Positions 1 to 9,417 of a stretch of 64,000 nt of DNA are shown piece by piece; positions within the stretch are counted from its first letter, which is position 1; each line of letters opens with the position of its first letter. The position numbers and the translations under genes were made by a program. This stretch comes from Bradyrhizobium sp. dw_411 (GTDB taxonomy: Bacteria > Pseudomonadota > Alphaproteobacteria > Rhizobiales > Xanthobacteraceae). The stretch covers positions 124,001-188,000 of the forward strand of contig NZ_JAAVUY010000012.1 of assembly GCF_018449695.1 (NCBI RefSeq), in the 5' to 3' direction. The notes under the pieces are model-generated. The model did not search any database, was not told the DNA's origin, and saw nothing but the letters and a program-made list of their open reading frames with translations.

Positions 1-1835
1 GCGGCCAGCGCGGTGCCGGTCAACATCGCCGCACCGATCAGGAGGGTTTGCTGCAGGATCAGCACGAACGCTGCCGGAACGACGTAGCTGGCATAGCCGC
101 CGACCGGATTGAAGATCGGTTGCAGCAGAACGTCGGCCGGGCTCGAACTCGCCAATTTCGCCTTGACGAGACTGCCATCGGAGCGGGCGCCTCGCGAAAC
201 CAGGTCGGACGTCAATGCGCCGATTGCGGTTGCGACTCCGCTTGCGGTCGATCTGAATATGAACAGGTAGGTGGCATCCGCATAGATCGGGATGTGAGCG
301 GTGAGGCCTTTGAGCACATCGCGCTCGGTGCCCGGGGGGATTTCGACGGCGGCAAAGGCCTCCCCGCGATTGATGGCCGTGCGCGCGTCGGCCAGCGTGC
401 GGGTGCGAACCACGACACTCAACGCGCCGCTCGCATCCAGGGTTTCGACGATCTGGCGGCTAAGGTCGCTTTGATCGTTGTCGACAACCGCAATAGGAAG
501 CTTGCGAAGGATCTGGTTCAGATAAGGCTGCGGATAATAAACGCCGTAAATCAGAGGGGCCAGGAACAAGAGGGTGAAAGCGCCCTTCATTCCCAACACG
601 CGCCGCCACTCCGCCTTGAAGGCGCCGCCGATGCCCCGGGGCACTTCGAGGACCTCCTGTTTTTCGGGAAGCGGCGCCGTCTCGAACCGGCCGTTGCGCT
701 TGAGGCTCGCCATGCGCAGCAACGCGAAGCTGGCATAGAGCACGGCCAGCCCAGCGAGTACCGTAAAGGAGAAGGCGGATTCCGAGACCGGCAATCCCCG
801 CGCCGCCTGACCCAGCAAGACGGACATGTACCAGCGCAGCGGCAGGATAGCGCTCCATCCTTGCGCAAACGCATTCATGCCGACGGTTGGAAAGCCAACG
901 CCGGCATAGCCGAATGCCGGAGAGACGAAGAGACCAGCCAGTCCGAGCCCGGTCGCCAGCTCACCGGTCAGGAGCTGCAGCAAGGCTCCCAGCGACAGAT
1001 GTGCAATAATCAGCAGCGAGGCTGCAGCCACCATCAGCGGTATGTCGCCCCGGAAGGGGATTTGCATCACGCCCTCCAGGAAGAGCGCTTCGGCCAACAT
1101 CAGCACGAAGAAGATGACGAATAGCGGCGCGAGCTTGCCGGCCAGCGCGATCACCGGATTGCCGCCGGCGCTTTCAAGCCACGCCCGCGCATCGCGACGG
1201 CGGAATTCGGATCCGACCGAATAGCCCGCGGCCAGGGTGATCACGACATGGATGATCATCGGCAGCAGCGCGCGCAGCAGGAATTGCGCATAGTTCTTTT
1301 GCGGATTGACCAGCGCGATGGTCTCCCCGGCCATCGTTCCGATGGAAGCCGCCGTGCGTGCGGCGCGCTTGGCGGGAGCGGCGGCGCTCGAAGCGACGGA
1401 AAGCACGTCGCTCAGGCCCGAAGATGCAATGCCGGCTGCCGTCAGAAACTGCTGGTTATAGAACCCGACGACCTGCGGACGGCGGTCGGCCTTGAGATCG
1501 CGCTCGAAATCCGGCGGGATAAAGATCGCCGAAATCGACTTGCCGGAGCGTATATCCTTCACGGCGGTCGAAAGCGTGCCGGCGCGGTCGACGATATGCA
1601 GGCTCGGAGACGCCGCGACGTATTCGATCAGCGCACGCGAGGCGTCCGATCGGTCCTCGTCGACTACGGTCACGCCGAGCCCCCGGATGACCGGATGGCT
1701 GAACACGGTCGTAAGAACCACGAACGCAAACAGCGGCACGCCGAAGATCAACAGCAGCGCCACGCGATCCTGAAACAGCCAGCGCCACTCGCGCTGCGCG
1801 ACCCGCAGAAAGCCTGGTTTTGCCGCCAGCCTCAT
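1..1835 (-). CDS. Fused ABC-2 type transporter permease (two permease modules), partial
   Basis: Inner-membrane permease of an ABC-2 type exporter. The reading frame is open from an ATG at 1835 to the window edge, so the C-terminus is missing. About 611 residues are visible and contain the same module twice: an N-terminal membrane helix near residue 22 followed by a periplasmic domain (V-V-D-E-D-R-S-D), several membrane helices, then after about residue 405 a second helix and domain (V-V-D-N-D-Q-S-D). This tandem layout is known from YhhJ/YhiP-like permeases. The ATG overlaps the stop of the adaptor gene by 4 bases, so the two are translationally coupled. No ATPase gene is visible; it may lie beyond the left edge. 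Substrate unknown. Confidence 0.88.
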   Translation of the reverse strand, partial: MRLAAKPGFLRVAQREWRWLFQDRVALLLIFGVPLFAFVVLTTVFSHPVIRGLGVTVVDEDRSDASRALIEYVAASPSLHIVDRAGTLSTAVKDIRSGKSISAIFIPPDFERDLKADRRPQVVGFYNQQFLTAAGIASSGLSDVLSVASSAAAPAKRAARTAASIGTMAGETIALVNPQKNYAQFLLRALLPMIIHVVITLAAGYSVGSEFRRRDARAWLESAGGNPVIALAGKLAPLFVIFFVLMLAEALFLEGVMQIPFRGDIPLMVAAASLLIIAHLSLGALLQLLTGELATGLGLAGLFVSPAFGYAGVGFPTVGMNAFAQGWSAILPLRWYMSVLLGQAARGLPVSESAFSFTVLAGLAVLYASFALLRMASLKRNGRFETAPLPEKQEVLEVPRGIGGAFKAEWRRVLGMKGAFTLLFLAPLIYGVYYPQPYLNQILRKLPIAVVDNDQSDLSRQIVETLDASGALSVVVRTRTLADARTAINRGEAFAAVEIPPGTERDVLKGLTAHIPIYADATYLFIFRSTASGVATAIGALTSDLVSRGARSDGSLVKAKLASSSPADVLLQPIFNPVGGYASYVVPAAFVLILQQTLLIGAAMLTGTALA

Positions 1836-2881
1836 TGCTTTAACCGCCAGTCGAGATAAGCGCTCATCCCGGGCCGCAGCTCCGGCACCGGCTGGACCGG
1901 ATAGGCGCGGATCGAAAACGTCCGCAAGTCGAAATCGCCCGAAGCGCGCGTGGCCCGCCAGCTCGCATATTCGCCCTTGGTCGCAATCAGCTTGACCTCG
2001 ACCGTGATGCGGCGGTCATCGAGCGCCGGAATACGGACATCAAATTTATCGCCGACCTTCAAGCCCTTCACCAGATCTTCGCGAAGATCGAAATGGATCC
2101 AGACATCGGCCAGATCGATCAGGGTAACGAGCGGCACGCCCGGCGAGACGTATTCGCCCGGCTCGACGTTGCGCTGGTAGACCTGCGAGGGGAGCGGCGC
2201 ATAGACCACGAGTTGGTCGATGATCGATTGAACGCTCTGGGCATCGGCATTGGCCTTTTCGACATTGGCGCTGGCGATCGCCCGCTCTTCCTTAGTGTAG
2301 CCATTGACCGCCTGCTGATAGGCTGATGTGGCCTGATCGACGGCGCGCTCGCTTTCGTGCAGCGCATCGGTGGCCTGGTCGAGCCGGGCTTGCGGCGCGT
2401 TGCCCTGGTCGGTCAAGGTGTGGACGCGGTCGAAGGTCTTTTGCGCCAGCACCAGGCTGGCCTGCGCGCGCTCCATTTCCGCCTTGCGGGCGGCGACGGT
2501 TTCCGCCCGTGTTCCGGCGAGCACATTGGCGAGCTGCGCCTGCGCAACGGCCATGGCCGCCTTCATCTGCTCGTATTTGGCAACAGTTTCGGGATTGTCG
2601 ATCCGCACGAGGACGGCGTTCGCCGCAACGTTCTGGCCGCGTTGCACGGGTATCTCCTTGACCCGTCCGTCGACGCGCGCGGCGATGTCGAGCCGTGTGG
2701 CATCGGCTTCGCCCTGCACCAGCAGCGGTTCAGGTCTCAGGAGATAGAAGGCGGACAGCGCGACGACAACAGCCGCAACGATACCGACGATAATGGAAGG
2801 CGTGCGTGTTGCGGCGTGTGGTTCCTTCGGTCCGGTATTCGGAGCCTCGGATGCCGTTTGAGTTTCTTCACCAGGAGTCAT
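1832..2881 (-). CDS. HlyD-family membrane fusion (periplasmic adaptor) protein
   Basis: A 349-residue adaptor linking an inner-membrane exporter to the outer membrane. It has a short cytoplasmic tail, one membrane helix near residues 29-48, a biotinyl-lipoyl-like half (V-D-G-R-V-K-E-I-P-V-Q-R-G-Q), a long alpha-helical hairpin rich in Ala and Gln (about residues 100-225), the second lipoyl half (Y-A-P-L-P-S-Q-V) and a beta-barrel region ending in P-E-L-R-P-G-M-S-A-Y-L-D-W. It is the first gene of a two-gene unit with the ABC-2 permease, overlapping it by 4 bases. The general role is firm from the family; the exported compound cannot be told from sequence. Confidence 0.9.
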   Translation of the reverse strand: MTPGEETQTASEAPNTGPKEPHAATRTPSIIVGIVAAVVVALSAFYLLRPEPLLVQGEADATRLDIAARVDGRVKEIPVQRGQNVAANAVLVRIDNPETVAKYEQMKAAMAVAQAQLANVLAGTRAETVAARKAEMERAQASLVLAQKTFDRVHTLTDQGNAPQARLDQATDALHESERAVDQATSAYQQAVNGYTKEERAIASANVEKANADAQSVQSIIDQLVVYAPLPSQVYQRNVEPGEYVSPGVPLVTLIDLADVWIHFDLREDLVKGLKVGDKFDVRIPALDDRRITVEVKLIATKGEYASWRATRASGDFDLRTFSIRAYPVQPVPELRPGMSAYLDWRLKQ

Positions 2882-4345: not shown

Positions 4346-5053
4346 GTGTCGTCAGGGCAGGATAGCAGCTTTTCGAATTGCACATAGGCTTGGCTGTTCA
4401 GCCTCCGGTCTTTCGCCGGATGCGAATGCAGCAGTTTTATTCAAGACCTCGGCGTTGAAGACGGGCAGCCTGTCCGGCTCGGACCTGCTCACATCCGTTT
4501 CGGACCCTCACCTGCTCGAGAACCGCATCGGACGTTTCGTGGCCGATGCCGAAGCGATCTATTCCTATGAGGGCACGCGCGCGATGAACACGCTGATCGT
4601 CGGCAAGTCGATTACAGGGCTGAGTGCTTTCGTATAATGCGCACGCTTCAGTGAGGGATGATGTGAGCGCGCCGAAAGCAGCCGCTTTATCAAAATCGCG
4701 ACTCGATCGTACAAGCGTCGCATGACGCCTGCGGCAAGATGGCCTCACCCGGATGCCCCTAGTGATCGAGCCATGCGCCTCTACACCGGAACGGCGCAGC
4801 ACGGCTTTCTGTCATCGGGCCAACGGGACGTCATGGCTTCCGAGCTTGTGCGTGTCATACTGCGGTAACAGGCGTTTCGGTTATTCGCTTTCCTATTCCG
4901 TCATGGATCTGAAAATCCTCGAGGACTACACGGTTTGTATTTCGAACGCGTCATGACAAGCTCGCCACGAAATCGCCTCGGCAACGGAGCGATATGCGCG
5001 TCCCACCTACGTCACTGCTGCCGCCGGTCAACGATCAAAAAGGAACTCTCGCC
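4346..5053. other. Gene-poor region between the AraC gene and poxB
   Basis: About 700 bases holding only the short acyl-CoA dehydrogenase remnant at 4512-4637. Short open frames elsewhere lack family resemblance and ribosome binding sites. The segment presumably contains the divergent promoters of the AraC and poxB genes. Confidence 0.5.
4512..4637 (+). pseudogene. C-terminal remnant of an acyl-CoA dehydrogenase
   Basis: The frame reads [17 protein letters not shown], then [11 protein letters not shown], then a TAA stop. This matches the end of glutaryl-CoA dehydrogenase-like acyl-CoA dehydrogenases, where Y-E-G-T precedes the final helix and the glutamate is the catalytic base. About 40 residues are recognisable. 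The same frame continues open upstream but loses all resemblance before about 4510, so the other roughly 350 residues of the family are absent. I read it as the leftover of a deleted gene, not a functional protein. Confidence 0.65.
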
Positions 5054-6775
5054 ATGAGCAGAACTGCAGCCGAATTTCTCGTCGAGGCTCTCGAAAAGAC
5101 CGGGGTGAAGCGCGTCTATGGCGTGGTGGGTGACTCGCTCAACGGGTTCACCGATGCGATGCGGCGACGGAAGTCGATCGAATGGATTCACATGCGCCAT
5201 GAGGAGGCCGGGGCATTTGCCGCCGGCGCCGAAGCTCATTTGACCGGAAACCTTGCCGTTTGTGCCGGAAGTTGCGGTCCCGGTAATCTGCACTTGATCA
5301 ACGGCCTGTTCGATTGCCAGCGAAGCGGTGTGCCGGTGCTGGCGATTGCGGCGCATATTCCGAGCACCGAGATCGGTATCGACTATTTCCAGGCGACGCA
5401 TCCGGAAAACCTGTTCAAGGACTGCAGCCATTACGTCGAGCTGGTCTCCAATCCCGCGTTGCTGCCGCAGATCCTCAAGCGCGCAATTCGAGTGGCGATC
5501 GCCAAACGCGGCGTTGCCGTCGTCGTGCTGCCCGGTGACGTCGCGCTGATGAAGATCGACACACCGGTGCCGAACTGGCTGGTTCCGACAGTGCCGGTGG
5601 TGCGTCCCGCTGGAAGCGAGATCGATCGTCTGGCGGAGTTCCTCAACGGTTCTTCGCGCGTGACGCTGCTCTGCGGCGCGGGATGTGCCGGTGCGCATGC
5701 CGAGGTGGTCGAACTGGCGCGAAAGCTGAAGGCGCCGATCGTCCACTCCTTCCGTGGCAAGGAACATCTGGAATACGACAATCCCTATGATGTCGGAATG
5801 ACCGGTCTGGTCGGCTTCGCGTCGGGTTACAACGCGATCAAGAGCTGTGACGCGCTGTTGATGCTGGGCACGGATTTCCCCTACCGCGCGTTCTATCCCG
5901 ACCATGCCAAGATCGCGCAGGTCGATATCCGCCCGGAAGCGCTCGGCAACCGCTGCGCGCTCGACATCGGATTGCTCGGATCCGTCAAGGACACGCTTGA
6001 CGCGCTGTTGCCTTCGATCAAGGAGCGGCACGCCTCTGATCATCTCGACACCGCGCTGGCCGATTACAAGGCCGCGCGCAAGAATCTCGATGCGTTGGCC
6101 GAAAGCGGGCCGAACAGCAGCATCATTCATCCGCAATATGTCACACGGCTCGTCAGCGAGATGGCGTCGGAAGACGCGGTCTTCACCTGCGATGTCGGCA
6201 CGCCGATCATATGGACCGCCCGCTATTTGAAGGTGAACGGCAAGCGCCGCATCATCGGTTCCTTCAATCACGGATCGATGGCGAACGCGATGTTGCAGGC
6301 GATCGGCGCGCAAACCGCCTATCCCGACCGGCAGGTGATCTCGCTATCGGGCGACGGCGGTTTCACCATGATGATGGGAGATTTTATCACGCTGACGCAG
6401 ATGGGATTGCCGGTGAAGGTCATCGTGCTCAACAACGGCACGCTCGGCTTTGTTGAAATGGAAATGAAGGCGACCGGCTTCCTCGACACCGGAACGGACC
6501 TGAAAAATCCCAATTTCGCCGCGATGGCGGAAGCGATGGGCGTCCGCGGCATCCGTGTCGAAAAACCGCAGGAATTAAAGGGCGCAATCGAGGCGACGCT
6601 GGCCCACAAGGGCCCGGTCCTGCTCGACGTCGTCAGCGCCAGACAAGAACTCGCGATGCCGCCGAAAACGACATTCGGCCAAGCCTATCATTTCGGGATG
6701 TTCATGATGGCTGCGGTTCTCGACGGCCGCGCAACCCAACTGATCGATCTCGCCAAGGTGAACCTGACGCGTTAG
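5054..6775 (+). CDS. poxB: Pyruvate oxidase / pyruvate dehydrogenase (quinone), thiamine diphosphate enzyme
   Basis: A 573-residue enzyme of the PoxB group, which decarboxylates pyruvate to acetate and passes electrons through FAD to the quinone pool at the membrane. The N-terminal domain has the catalytic glutamate at residue 50 in M-R-H-E-E-A-G-A-F-A-A-G-A-E. The C-terminal domain has the thiamine diphosphate motif S-G-D-G-G-F followed by L-N-N-G-T-L-G-F, and the G-F-V-E-M-E-M-K stretch typical of PoxB. Length fits the family (E. coli PoxB, 572). I use ATG 5054 because of AAAGGAA upstream; a frame-compatible start at 4994 would add 20 atypical residues. Substrate is inferred from similarity. 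Confidence 0.88.
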   Translation: MSRTAAEFLVEALEKTGVKRVYGVVGDSLNGFTDAMRRRKSIEWIHMRHEEAGAFAAGAEAHLTGNLAVCAGSCGPGNLHLINGLFDCQRSGVPVLAIAAHIPSTEIGIDYFQATHPENLFKDCSHYVELVSNPALLPQILKRAIRVAIAKRGVAVVVLPGDVALMKIDTPVPNWLVPTVPVVRPAGSEIDRLAEFLNGSSRVTLLCGAGCAGAHAEVVELARKLKAPIVHSFRGKEHLEYDNPYDVGMTGLVGFASGYNAIKSCDALLMLGTDFPYRAFYPDHAKIAQVDIRPEALGNRCALDIGLLGSVKDTLDALLPSIKERHASDHLDTALADYKAARKNLDALAESGPNSSIIHPQYVTRLVSEMASEDAVFTCDVGTPIIWTARYLKVNGKRRIIGSFNHGSMANAMLQAIGAQTAYPDRQVISLSGDGGFTMMMGDFITLTQMGLPVKVIVLNNGTLGFVEMEMKATGFLDTGTDLKNPNFAAMAEAMGVRGIRVEKPQELKGAIEATLAHKGPVLLDVVSARQELAMPPKTTFGQAYHFGMFMMAAVLDGRATQLIDLAKVNLTR

Positions 6776-6985: not shown

Positions 6986-7519
6986 TTACGGCGCTTTCGG
7001 AGCCGCGCCGTAATTCGTTTGCAGATAGGAGATGATCTGCCCGGCCTGGTTGGCATCGATCGGCGCGCCGATGGCGACCATGCGGTGCACGATGGCTTCC
7101 CACTGCCGGCCGGGACGTGCGACGGCGACCACGCGGTCGACGCCGTGGCAAGTCCCGCAGGCGCCGGTGACGAGGTCCGCGCCGGCGCCGTCAGGCAATT
7201 TCACCGGCGTGGGCGCCGGACCGGGAATCGGCACGCCGGGTCCAAAGTTGGTCGCGAGATATTTGACGACATCGTCGATTTCGTCCGGCTTTATCTGCGC
7301 GCCGCGCAACATCATGTTGTAGACCTGCCGGCGCCAGCCATCCTCGCCCATGCGCAATTGCGTGATCGGCCCCGCCCGGTGGCACTGCGTGCAAGCGACG
7401 GCGATGGTGTCGCGGCCCGCGCCAGCCGGGAATGGGTTGCTCTGTTGGGCCTGCGCCGTAACGCCCAGAAGCAGGATGCCTGTCAGTATGCCCGCGGCCC
7501 CGAGAATGAAGCTTCGCAT
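6986..7519 (-). CDS. Periplasmic diheme c-type cytochrome
   Basis: A 177-residue exported protein: signal peptide of about 24 residues ending A-Q-A-Q, then two tandem heme c domains with C-T-Q-C-H at 43-47 and C-G-T-C-H at 121-125. Each CXXCH is followed by a similar pattern (W-R-R-Q-V-Y-N-M-M-L-R-G-A and W-E-A-I-V-H-R-M-V-A-I-G-A), so each half carries a methionine that could be the second heme ligand. The gene starts two bases after the stop of the Tat-exported thiamine diphosphate enzyme and is surely co-transcribed with it. Likely role: electron acceptor for that enzyme in the periplasm, an inference from context. Confidence 0.88.
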   Translation of the reverse strand: MRSFILGAAGILTGILLLGVTAQAQQSNPFPAGAGRDTIAVACTQCHRAGPITQLRMGEDGWRRQVYNMMLRGAQIKPDEIDDVVKYLATNFGPGVPIPGPAPTPVKLPDGAGADLVTGACGTCHGVDRVVAVARPGRQWEAIVHRMVAIGAPIDANQAGQIISYLQTNYGAAPKAP

Positions 7520-7521
7520 GA

Positions 7522-9417
7522 TCAAGCCTTCCGCGTGCGCTTGGCGGCGATCGAATAGGGCGGATACCATTCCGAGGCGGCGCCGACACCGGCGCGGTCG
7601 ACGATGATATCGAGCAAATAGGGTCGGCCTTCGATGTTGGCGCGCTTGGCGCGGGCGAGGTGCTCCTGGATCTTCGAGGGATCGGTGACCGTCTCGCCCT
7701 CGACACCATAGGCCGCGGCGGATTTGGCAAAATCCACATCGGGACTGCCATTGTAGCAGGTCATGTCCTTGCCGGAATTGAACTGCTGCGGGCCGGTAAA
7801 ACTCCAGATCCGGTTGCGCTCGTTGTTGTAGCTGCGGTTGTTGACCACGAGGTTGGTGATCGGCGCCTTGTAGCGCGCTTGGCTCCACAGCGGCTGCGGG
7901 CCGCCGAACATCGCGCTGCCGTCTCCCATCGCGGAGACAACAGGGCGGTTGGGCCGGGCTAGCTGCGCGCCCATTGCGGCTGCCTGCGCCCAGCCAAGGA
8001 TATTGGCCGTCGTGGAGTAGAACGCCTTGTCGGTGCCGCCGAAATTCATCACGGAATCCATGATGCGGCCCGACTCGCAATCGGTGACGAAGATCGTCTC
8101 TTTGTCGAGGAAGTTTTCGAGTTCGATGCCCAGGCGTTCCATGGTGATGGACGAATTGTTGTCGACATTTTTCACGATATCGGCGCGCAACTTGGCGGTG
8201 CTCGCGGTGTAGGCGCGGGTGCGGGCGGAGCGCGCGTCGGCGATCTGCTTCAGGCGCTCGGCAGTGGCCATGCTTTTGACGGCCGCGATGATGTCGGCGA
8301 GGCCGAGCTTGATGTTGGCGACGATGGGCATGTCGATCGGCCACGAACGCGCCAGACCGGTCGGGTCGTTTCGCATGGAAATGGTAATGGCGTTCGGCAT
8401 GCGCTGTTCGCCGACCTGACTGCCAATATTGAAGTGAACGTCGACGGGGCTGGAGAAGTGCCCGCCGGGGACGAAATAGCCGACGAATTGTGGGTCGCGG
8501 GTCGGATAAGGTTTGGACCAGTTGCCGAGCGAGCCGCCGACGGTAGTCACCGGAATCCCCAGCAAATTGGCGAGTTCAACCACTTCGGCTTCCGCCTGGC
8601 ACAGCGTGACTTCGTCGCCGGCTGTGATCAGCGGATTGCGCGCCTCGATCAGTTGTTTGGCGATCGCCTCGACATCGTCGCGGTCGGGACGGAACTTCAT
8701 CGCCACGTTGAACAGGCGGCCATCGTAAACATCGGCGGTGACGGTTGCGCGCAACAGATCGTCGGGGATCGAGAGAAACACCGGGCCGGTCGGTGGCGTG
8801 TTGCCGAATTTGATGACGCGCCTTGTCACGTCGGCGATCCCGGCCGCGCTCTCGGCCACCCAGAACGATTTGGTGATCGGCGTGACCATCGGCTCCTGGT
8901 GGTCGTAGTCCTGCGGATAGTCGCGCCCGGTGGTTTCGGTGCTGAACGCCGCGACGGTGAGCAGCACGGGGATATGGTCTTTCCAGCTATTGACCAGTTG
9001 CGTCATGCCGCTGGGAAGGCCGACATTGGCGATCTGGGCCACGCCGATCTTGCCGGAGACGCGGGCATAACCGTCGGCCATCGCGACAACGGCGCCTTCC
9101 TGGACGCCCTTGATGAGTTGGATCTCGGGCATGTCGACCAGCGCATCGTAGATCGGCGCGTCGCCGGTCGATGGATTGAAGAAGATGAATTCCGTGCCGG
9201 CGGCCTTGAGCTGTTCGATATAGAGCTTGCCGCCAGTGCCGGTCACCTGGCGGATGCCCCCGCCGCCGGTGGCTGATTGAGCCATCGCGGGGCTTGGTGA
9301 TAACGACTCGACGATTGTTTTGGCCGCGGCAGCGGTCAGCCCGGCGGCGCCGAGGCCGCGCATCAGACCGCGCCGTGAAATGCCATTGTTAAGGTATTGC
9401 CGAACGAGCTCCTTCAT
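7522..9417 (-). CDS. Tat-exported thiamine diphosphate-dependent enzyme (acetolactate synthase / benzoylformate decarboxylase superfamily)
   Basis: A 631-residue enzyme with the three-domain fold of thiamine diphosphate decarboxylases and oxidases. The activating glutamate is at residue 107 (G-V-Q-E-G-A-V-V-A-M-A-D-G-Y-A) and the cofactor motif reads M-G-D-G-S-A-M-F-G-G, followed by V-V-N-N-R-S-Y-N-N-E. Ahead of the catalytic part are about 46 extra residues forming a twin-arginine signal: S-R-R-G-L-M at 14-19, an Ala/Leu/Gly-rich stretch and a likely cleavage after A-M-A. Start ATG 9417 has GGGAG nearby. With the diheme cytochrome c gene directly behind it, this looks like a periplasmic 2-oxo acid decarboxylase or oxidase; the substrate is unknown. 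Confidence 0.85.
   Translation of the reverse strand: MKELVRQYLNNGISRRGLMRGLGAAGLTAAAAKTIVESLSPSPAMAQSATGGGGIRQVTGTGGKLYIEQLKAAGTEFIFFNPSTGDAPIYDALVDMPEIQLIKGVQEGAVVAMADGYARVSGKIGVAQIANVGLPSGMTQLVNSWKDHIPVLLTVAAFSTETTGRDYPQDYDHQEPMVTPITKSFWVAESAAGIADVTRRVIKFGNTPPTGPVFLSIPDDLLRATVTADVYDGRLFNVAMKFRPDRDDVEAIAKQLIEARNPLITAGDEVTLCQAEAEVVELANLLGIPVTTVGGSLGNWSKPYPTRDPQFVGYFVPGGHFSSPVDVHFNIGSQVGEQRMPNAITISMRNDPTGLARSWPIDMPIVANIKLGLADIIAAVKSMATAERLKQIADARSARTRAYTASTAKLRADIVKNVDNNSSITMERLGIELENFLDKETIFVTDCESGRIMDSVMNFGGTDKAFYSTTANILGWAQAAAMGAQLARPNRPVVSAMGDGSAMFGGPQPLWSQARYKAPITNLVVNNRSYNNERNRIWSFTGPQQFNSGKDMTCYNGSPDVDFAKSAAAYGVEGETVTDPSKIQEHLARAKRANIEGRPYLLDIIVDRAGVGAASEWYPPYSIAAKRTRKA

Follow-up and report, generated by a model that had tools for sequence, protein, structure and literature searches.

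A twin-arginine ThDP-dependent enzyme paired with an exported c-type cytochrome suggests a periplasmic, cytochrome-linked ThDP oxidoreductase in Bradyrhizobium

In the window, by which we mean the whole 64,000-nucleotide stretch of Bradyrhizobium sp. dw_411 DNA that was analysed, a gene for a thiamine diphosphate (ThDP)-dependent enzyme with a predicted Tat signal adjoins a gene for a di-haem c-type cytochrome with a predicted Sec signal (Table 1), and in dozens of bacteria from soil and water a ThDP gene of the exported type likewise has a gene for an exported haem protein as its neighbour. We consider it probable, on balance, that the two products constitute a ThDP oxidoreductase of the periplasm, linked to cytochrome c, whose substrate would be a 2-oxo acid or an aldehyde and which would pass the electrons of the ThDP-enamine to haem. 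As judged from sequence, export of the ThDP enzyme and its pairing with the cytochrome are well supported; the ThDP site is conserved, as are the twin-arginine (RR) signal and the pairing with an exported cytochrome, and the combination recurs in a second ThDP lineage.

Table 1 Features of the ThDP-cytochrome gene pair in the window and of the second-lineage pair in the same genome
Feature	Position	Strand	Basis or remark
ThDP-dependent enzyme with Tat signal, 631 aa	7522..9417	-	ORF, Pfam, NCBIfam, structure model
Predicted Tat signal peptide, residues 1-46, cleavage after A44-M45-A46	9280..9417	-	Sequence and RR conservation
Twin arginine, R15-R16 codons	9370..9375	-	Sequence, alignment
E107, ThDP-activating glutamate (presumed role)	9097..9099	-	Invariant in family alignments
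G498-D499-G500-S501, start of ThDP/Mg motif	7915..7926	-	G498-G500 invariant
N526-N527, end of ThDP/Mg motif	7837..7842	-	Invariant
Di-haem c-type cytochrome, 177 aa, SorB-like / QHNDH-alpha-like	6986..7519	-	2 nt past the ThDP stop codon
Predicted Sec signal peptide of the cytochrome (MRSFILGAAGILTGILLLGVTAQA)	7448..7519	-	Sequence, by eye
Haem site 1, CTQCH (C43-H47)	7379..7393	-	Invariant M69 (7313-7315), likely sixth ligand
Haem site 2, CGTCH (C121-H125)	7145..7159	-	Invariant M147 (7079-7081), likely sixth ligand
Second Tat ThDP gene, contig C22 (locus L111, outside the window)	437-2392	-	RR signal
Exported cytochrome c directly after the second-lineage ThDP gene	L111 67-426	-	CxxCH and signal

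The reading frame of the ThDP enzyme is favoured at its site by length and codon periodicity and opens with an ATG. Its product exceeded the Pfam cut-offs for TPP_enzyme_N (80 bits), TPP_enzyme_M (42.9 bits) and TPP_enzyme_C (94.5 bits). A preliminary description of this DNA had proposed an acetolactate synthase-type catalytic core with E107 and a GDGS...NN motif; these residues are present at the places it gave, and the three domain matches agree with it. E107, which we take from general knowledge of the superfamily to be the ThDP-activating residue, was unchanged in 70 of 70 rows of a family alignment (69 of the 80 loci described below plus the window protein), as were G498-G500 and N526-N527, and the ThDP site appears to be intact throughout the window family. 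The domains, the glutamate and the GDG...NN region together place the protein in the ThDP superfamily of decarboxylase, acetolactate synthase and POX type, and the term acetolactate synthase-type is right at this level, acetolactate synthases coming close behind BbmA and benzoylformate decarboxylase (BFDC) among the solved structures. A catalytically dead ThDP-fold protein that serves the cytochrome as scaffold, sensor or storage partner has general precedent only, non-catalytic uses of enzyme folds being known in general; with E107, GDG and NN invariant in every aligned row, we regard it as very improbable.

The N-terminus of the ThDP protein (MKELVRQYLNNGISRRGLMRGL...PSPAMAQ) divides around its motif as MKELVRQYLNNGI-SRRGLM-RGLGAAGLTAAAAKTIVESLSPSPAMA-Q, and both the SRRxL twin arginine and the AMA cleavage site named in the preliminary description are present in it. 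Because the patterns used for the locus scan were drawn from residues ~74-95, outside the signal, the twin arginine was not selected for by the scan; nevertheless, S/N/P-RR was found in all 77 readable N-termini of the 80 homologous loci, which rules out an origin by chance or from a mis-called start. Homologues that begin near residue 50 without the RR, which the same description had named as grounds for rejecting its proposal, do not occur among these 77. Within residues 1-58 of the 70-row alignment, M1, R15, R16 and G26 were the sole invariant positions. Two loci (L035, L066) have a visible RR in a frame that is broken or lacks a start, and the ThDP protein of L038 has lost its N-terminus at a contig end, so that its RR row is false. 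The residue at RR+2 was always F (58) or L (20) in the 78 real cases, which include the window protein; [AV]xA followed 15-45 residues after the RR in 79/79 rows (the false L038 row included), compared with ~35/79 expected by chance. The features of a Tat substrate, namely S-R-R-x-F/L, a mild h-region and AxA, are thus all found in the sequence, and tatC gave one match in the genome.

Tat export of the ThDP enzyme is therefore a strongly supported prediction, and the case for it rests on the conservation of the signal. The preliminary description had joined export to 2-oxo acid decarboxylation in the periplasm; the first half of that proposal stands with the RR in 77/77, whereas plain decarboxylation is an incomplete account which overlooked the exported cytochrome. 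One may postulate instead that the N-terminus is no working export signal and that the enzyme is cytosolic, given that the h-region shows no more than mild hydrophobicity (mean of 1.35 for the best 13-mer, compared with a family median of 1.32) and that K33 lies within or just after it. This scenario is hard to reconcile with the conserved RR, the F/L at RR+2 and the AxA that follows, with the presence of tatC, or with a partner that carries a Sec-type signal and haem c sites; moreover, RR and cytochrome occur together again in a second lineage and are both missing from 20 of its paralogues (see below). We give the cytosolic scenario hardly any credence.

The partner has the marks of a c-type cytochrome at the level of sequence, with CxxCH sites and axial methionines. 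Both haem sites, M69 and M147 were invariant in 23 aligned di-haem cytochromes, counting three CxxxCH cases, and the presence of one invariant methionine in each half makes His/Met ligation likely. In the cytochromes of L029, L032 and L033, CxxxCH replaces CxxCH at the second haem site. The QHNDH-alpha haem domain PF09098 matched the window cytochrome with 36.5 bits against a cut-off of 25.2 (23 for its truncated version), and the full-length models for SorB (NF052246, 66.2 against 93 bits) and QHNDH alpha (TIGR03908, 45 against 274.35 bits) both remained below cut-off. Likeness to SorB and QHNDH was weak (E 0.0035 and 9.5e-5). The AF2 model of the cytochrome had a pLDDT of 85.9 and a modest pTM of 0.66; its top structural match was SorB of 2BLF (Z 9.7, rmsd 4.4 over 77 residues), which for a helical protein is a low score; with Foldseek, this model returned no match below E 0.001. 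Searching the organism's own genome with SorB gave two matches only, the two halves of the window cytochrome, each below cut-off.

SorB and QHNDH alpha are both parts of enzymes in which electrons go from the catalytic cofactor to haem. The sulfite dehydrogenase SorAB (2BLF; NF052246) likewise consists of an exported catalytic subunit and a small haem-c subunit, and PMC4760952 describes it as a permanent haem-Mo heterodimer. The window pair differs from it in that the catalytic partner is a ThDP enzyme and not a Mo enzyme and in that the cytochrome is di-haem in the window's clade; no SorA Mo subunit was found beside the cytochrome, whose neighbours are the ThDP enzyme and a convergent PoxB gene. 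With the QHNDH alpha subunit (1JMX, 1JJU) the cytochrome has the tandem di-haem arrangement in common, its TIGR03908 score notwithstanding.

The scan of named genome contigs yielded 80 loci, the best 80 of 96 that passed; the titles of 79 denote metagenome-assembled genomes and that of one (L055) a single-cell genome, mostly from Proteobacteria and Acidobacteria. A same-strand CxxCH gene adjoined the ThDP gene in 70/80 loci. Of 261 distant genes with 300 aa or more from the loci and the window region, only 2 had a same-strand CxxCH neighbour within 350 nt, and chance background is thereby ruled out as the source of the adjacency. The arrangement also survived an exchange of gene order: in the window's clade (L016-L036) the cytochrome lies downstream and is di-haem, whereas in clade B (most of L038-L095) it lies upstream and mostly has one haem site (two in L048, L058 and L078). 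The gaps are operon-like, with medians of 25 nt for upstream cytochromes (50 genes) and 2 nt for downstream ones (42, one of them spurious). CxxCH frames flanked the ThDP gene on both sides in 22 loci, the downstream one of L082 being spurious, and L046 and L064 are additional cases with frames cut by contig ends. Pfam assigned no family to two clade-B upstream cytochromes; the downstream cytochrome of L040, the sole downstream one of clade B that was scanned, is an ordinary Cytochrome_CBB3-type protein.

Ten loci had no adjoining cytochrome. In four of them (L022, L038, L049, L081) a contig end lies too near the ThDP gene, and in L066 a cytochrome is located 2.2 kb away. The five Acidobacteria loci L036, L037, L062, L069 and L075 showed none near the ThDP gene, with visible downstream sequence of 816 nt in L036 and 530 nt in L037, which suggests that the partner may be encoded elsewhere or be dispensable. 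No ThDP-cytochrome fusion was present among the ThDP proteins of the 80 loci and the window, nor among 51 proteins included in a phylogenetic tree.

The remark of the preliminary description that enzymes of this superfamily are almost always cytosolic fits the organism's own genome. PF02776 had 17 matches there, and of the 12 other full-length ThDP genes examined (L096-L107) a single one carries an RR signal; this gene represents a second lineage, whose enzyme shares ~24% identity with the window family. No match was obtained for L108 and L109 in the ThDP search of this genome, and for L110 a short weak one in a frame with two RR patterns, which we did not regard as a ThDP gene. A search with the second lineage gave matches in 51 of 198 genomes; of the 110 in total, 38 had high and 72 lower identity, and 30 were made into loci. 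In the high-identity loci (45.6-54%, plus the organism's own gene) an RR signal was found in 27/27, and in 27/27 a CxxCH gene that includes a signal-like stretch lies downstream; in L139 and L140 the cytochrome is present and the N-terminus of the ThDP protein is missing. One lower-identity paralogue, L141, has neither feature.

Controls were 20 of the 72 lower-identity paralogues (31-39%), among which L145 is the same gene as L141. Neither the RR (0/20) nor a downstream CxxCH frame with a preceding hydrophobic stretch (0/20) was found in them; since these paralogues were hand-picked and their matches start late in the query, the missing signal was partly foreseeable, but the missing downstream cytochrome was not. 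The contrast of 27/27 with 0/20 amounts to paired presence and paired absence inside one family. In the tree, the window family formed one clade (100/99), the second lineage and its paralogues formed another (100/100), and the signal-bearing part of the second lineage was itself one clade (100/98); the two families joined weakly (91/61). Since signal and cytochrome accompany each other in two ThDP lineages that are separate, their pairing may have had more than one origin; two origins, or one followed by loss, would both fit. Two of the 20 paralogues, the RR-less L143 and L144, have a CxxCH gene ~300 nt upstream of the ThDP-like gene that we take to be SoxA-like, and these ThDP-like genes possibly lie within a thiosulfate-oxidation cluster.

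The AF2 model of the ThDP protein (pLDDT 88.9, pTM 0.86) was closest to the 'HKA synthase' BbmA (Z 46, 28% identity) and to BFDC (Z 44, ~26%) among solved structures, with acetolactate synthases at up to Z 44.3 and the pyruvate:quinone oxidoreductase (PQO) of C. glutamicum at Z 42.9. BFDC (1BFD; NF005485) and BbmA (8X3X) share with the window enzyme the three-domain ThDP fold (Z 43-46, 24-28% identity), the ThDP glutamate and the GDG...NN region; the window enzyme differs in having a signal and a short linker in front, the matches beginning at residue 57-60, and in having a cytochrome partner. NCBIfam cut-offs were reached by none of the best 25 of the 54 models that matched the window protein, and by none among the best models for three other family members or the second lineage. 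In particular, NF005485 (benzoylformate decarboxylase) scored 191.5 bits against a cut-off of 493. Opposite BFDC His70, which we take to be a catalytic residue, the family profile has an alanine (column set by the H70A entry 4qel) and the window protein a gap or Ile. On both counts, the score and the lack of a His70 counterpart, the protein departs from benzoylformate decarboxylase.

A periplasmic, non-oxidative decarboxylase or lyase would release an aldehyde, and the cytochrome would then serve a separate aldehyde dehydrogenase, for example a Mo enzyme pair. The nearest solved relatives (HKA synthase, BFDC and benzaldehyde lyase) are indeed all non-oxidative, and candidate Mo enzymes exist: a molybdenum/2Fe-2S oxidoreductase pair whose large subunit has an RR signal directly follows the ThDP gene in L066, a 2Fe-2S small subunit directly follows it in L057 before the contig ends, and Mo/2Fe-2S genes lie within ~6 kb in L072, L076, L080 and L085. 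Where visible, the Mo large subunits of clade-B loci have an RR near the N-terminus; Pfam was applied to both subunits of L066 and the large subunit of L080. Mo-enzyme genes near some loci fit an aldehyde product. However, the cytochrome adjoins the ThDP gene in 70/80 loci and Mo genes occur in few, only cytochromes and frames overlapping them keep a constant place among the listed clusters, and BFDC His70 lacks a counterpart. The non-oxidative nature of the nearest relatives and the few loci that offer an aldehyde-oxidising Mo candidate speak for this alternative; we nonetheless hold it to be unlikely.

Beyond these genes, the clusters listed for the loci contained no constant neighbour other than the cytochromes and frames overlapping them. 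Genes resembling transporter receptors and ring oxygenases recur, by eye, in some loci among the matches listed, and L055 has a confirmed gene for a type II haloacid dehalogenase. The attempt to assign a substrate from gene neighbourhood was given up, as no cluster apart from the cytochromes keeps a constant place.

A second alternative is that the exported ThDP enzyme holds FAD, as do PoxB and pyruvate:quinone oxidoreductase, and that FADH2 reduces the cytochrome. PQO and acetolactate synthases, both of which bind FAD, are among the structural matches (Z 42.9 and up to 44.3), the window gene has two PoxB-like genes in its surroundings, at most ~11 kb away, and the Tat route suits a tightly bound cytosolic cofactor. 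Still, the closest matches are BbmA and BFDC, which to our knowledge are not FAD enzymes, and the match to TPP_enzyme_M is weak (42.9 bits); we therefore view a flavin relay as improbable, more so than a non-oxidative enzyme. PoxB and C. glutamicum PQO (9EV6) belong to the same superfamily and are the model for respiration-coupled oxidation of a ThDP-enamine. PoxB, however, works on the cytosolic side, depends on FAD and reduces quinone, whereas the window enzyme bears an export signal and is paired with a cytochrome c, and the PoxB model NF006591 was absent from the best 25 of 54 models for the window protein.

The genome has a true PoxB gene separate from the exported ThDP gene, at window positions 4994-6775(+) (PRK09124/NF006591, 960.7 against a cut-off of 792). 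A second PoxB-like gene (L009, 8728-10521(+)) scored 655.4, below cut-off, and both of these genes for quinone-linked pyruvate dehydrogenases are at most ~11 kb away from the exported ThDP gene. That three ThDP genes lie so near one another may be due to chance or to a common pathway. A gene for an 849-aa HAF-repeat protein (TIGR02913; 9778-12327(+) of the window) diverges from the ThDP operon.

The exported ThDP gene was found in 6 of 149 genomes of the taxonomic family, own genome included, with the same six recovered by profile search; the 11 listed genomes of the same genus gave no match. Samples of the phylum and the order at E 1e-60 returned the organism's own genome only (1/398 and 1/347, with three candidates scored per genome and hence possible missed matches), and a plasmid collection gave no match at E 1e-40. 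The closest relatives (69-72%) among the best 80 of 96 loci are Acetobacteraceae/Rhodospirillales metagenome-assembled genomes, compared with 55% for the best match within the organism's own taxonomic family. Since relatives from distant groups are closer than those from the family, and the gene is absent from those 11 listed genomes of the genus, it was perhaps gained horizontally.

We return to the cytochrome-linked oxidoreductase. An exported cytochrome that lies 2 nt downstream and is conserved suggests an oxidation whose electrons enter respiration, not a plain decarboxylase. In the scheme that we infer, which extends to actual export, complex formation, direct haem reduction, an acid product and the class of substrate, the ThDP enzyme would fold and take up ThDP and Mg in the cytosol and would then be exported folded by Tat; the cytochrome would be exported unfolded by Sec and receive its haem in the periplasm. 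The enzyme would attack an aldehyde, an acyloin or a 2-oxo acid, the last of these losing CO2, and so form the enamine (Breslow) intermediate. The SorB-like cytochrome would dock and take up two electrons one after the other, and the acyl-ThDP left behind would be hydrolysed by water to a carboxylic acid; as no coenzyme A is expected in the periplasm, an acyl-CoA product is unlikely. Electrons would proceed to a terminal oxidase, either directly or, where a second cytochrome is encoded as in many clade-B loci, by way of it.

The ThDP oxidases known so far employ FAD or Fe-S clusters. The chemistry of the proposed step has a precedent in vitro: PMC12352684 describes oxidation of the ThDP enamine by single-electron steps in benzaldehyde lyase with C2Cl6, with acids formed through an acyl azolium, and PMC8159350 states in general terms that single-electron oxidation of ThDP enamines is known. 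Taken together with SorB and QHNDH relatives that receive electrons in enzyme complexes, one-electron oxidation of the enamine favours reading the pair as a cytochrome c oxidoreductase.

We know of no periplasmic or cytochrome-c-linked ThDP enzyme; the ThDP oxidoreductases known to us act on the cytosolic side and deliver electrons to FAD/quinone, O2, ferredoxin or lipoamide. The best-ranked open-access literature matches contained no description of a periplasmic or cytochrome-linked ThDP enzyme, which is weak evidence of absence. The parts are of known kinds, and we could not assign their combination to a known system. Whether the pair represents a new class of respiratory enzyme, in which haem c and not flavin, Fe-S or lipoamide takes the ThDP-enamine electrons directly in the periplasm, is in our estimation evenly balanced. 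The pairing suggests an undescribed route by which electrons from carbon compounds pass straight into respiration outside the inner membrane. If this is true, 2-oxo acids or aldehydes would be oxidised without import into the bacteria, ThDP would need to be exported inside a folded protein, and periplasmic respiration would extend to thiamine chemistry; the pair would also be a model from nature for the kind of single-electron ThDP chemistry now being engineered (PMC12352684).
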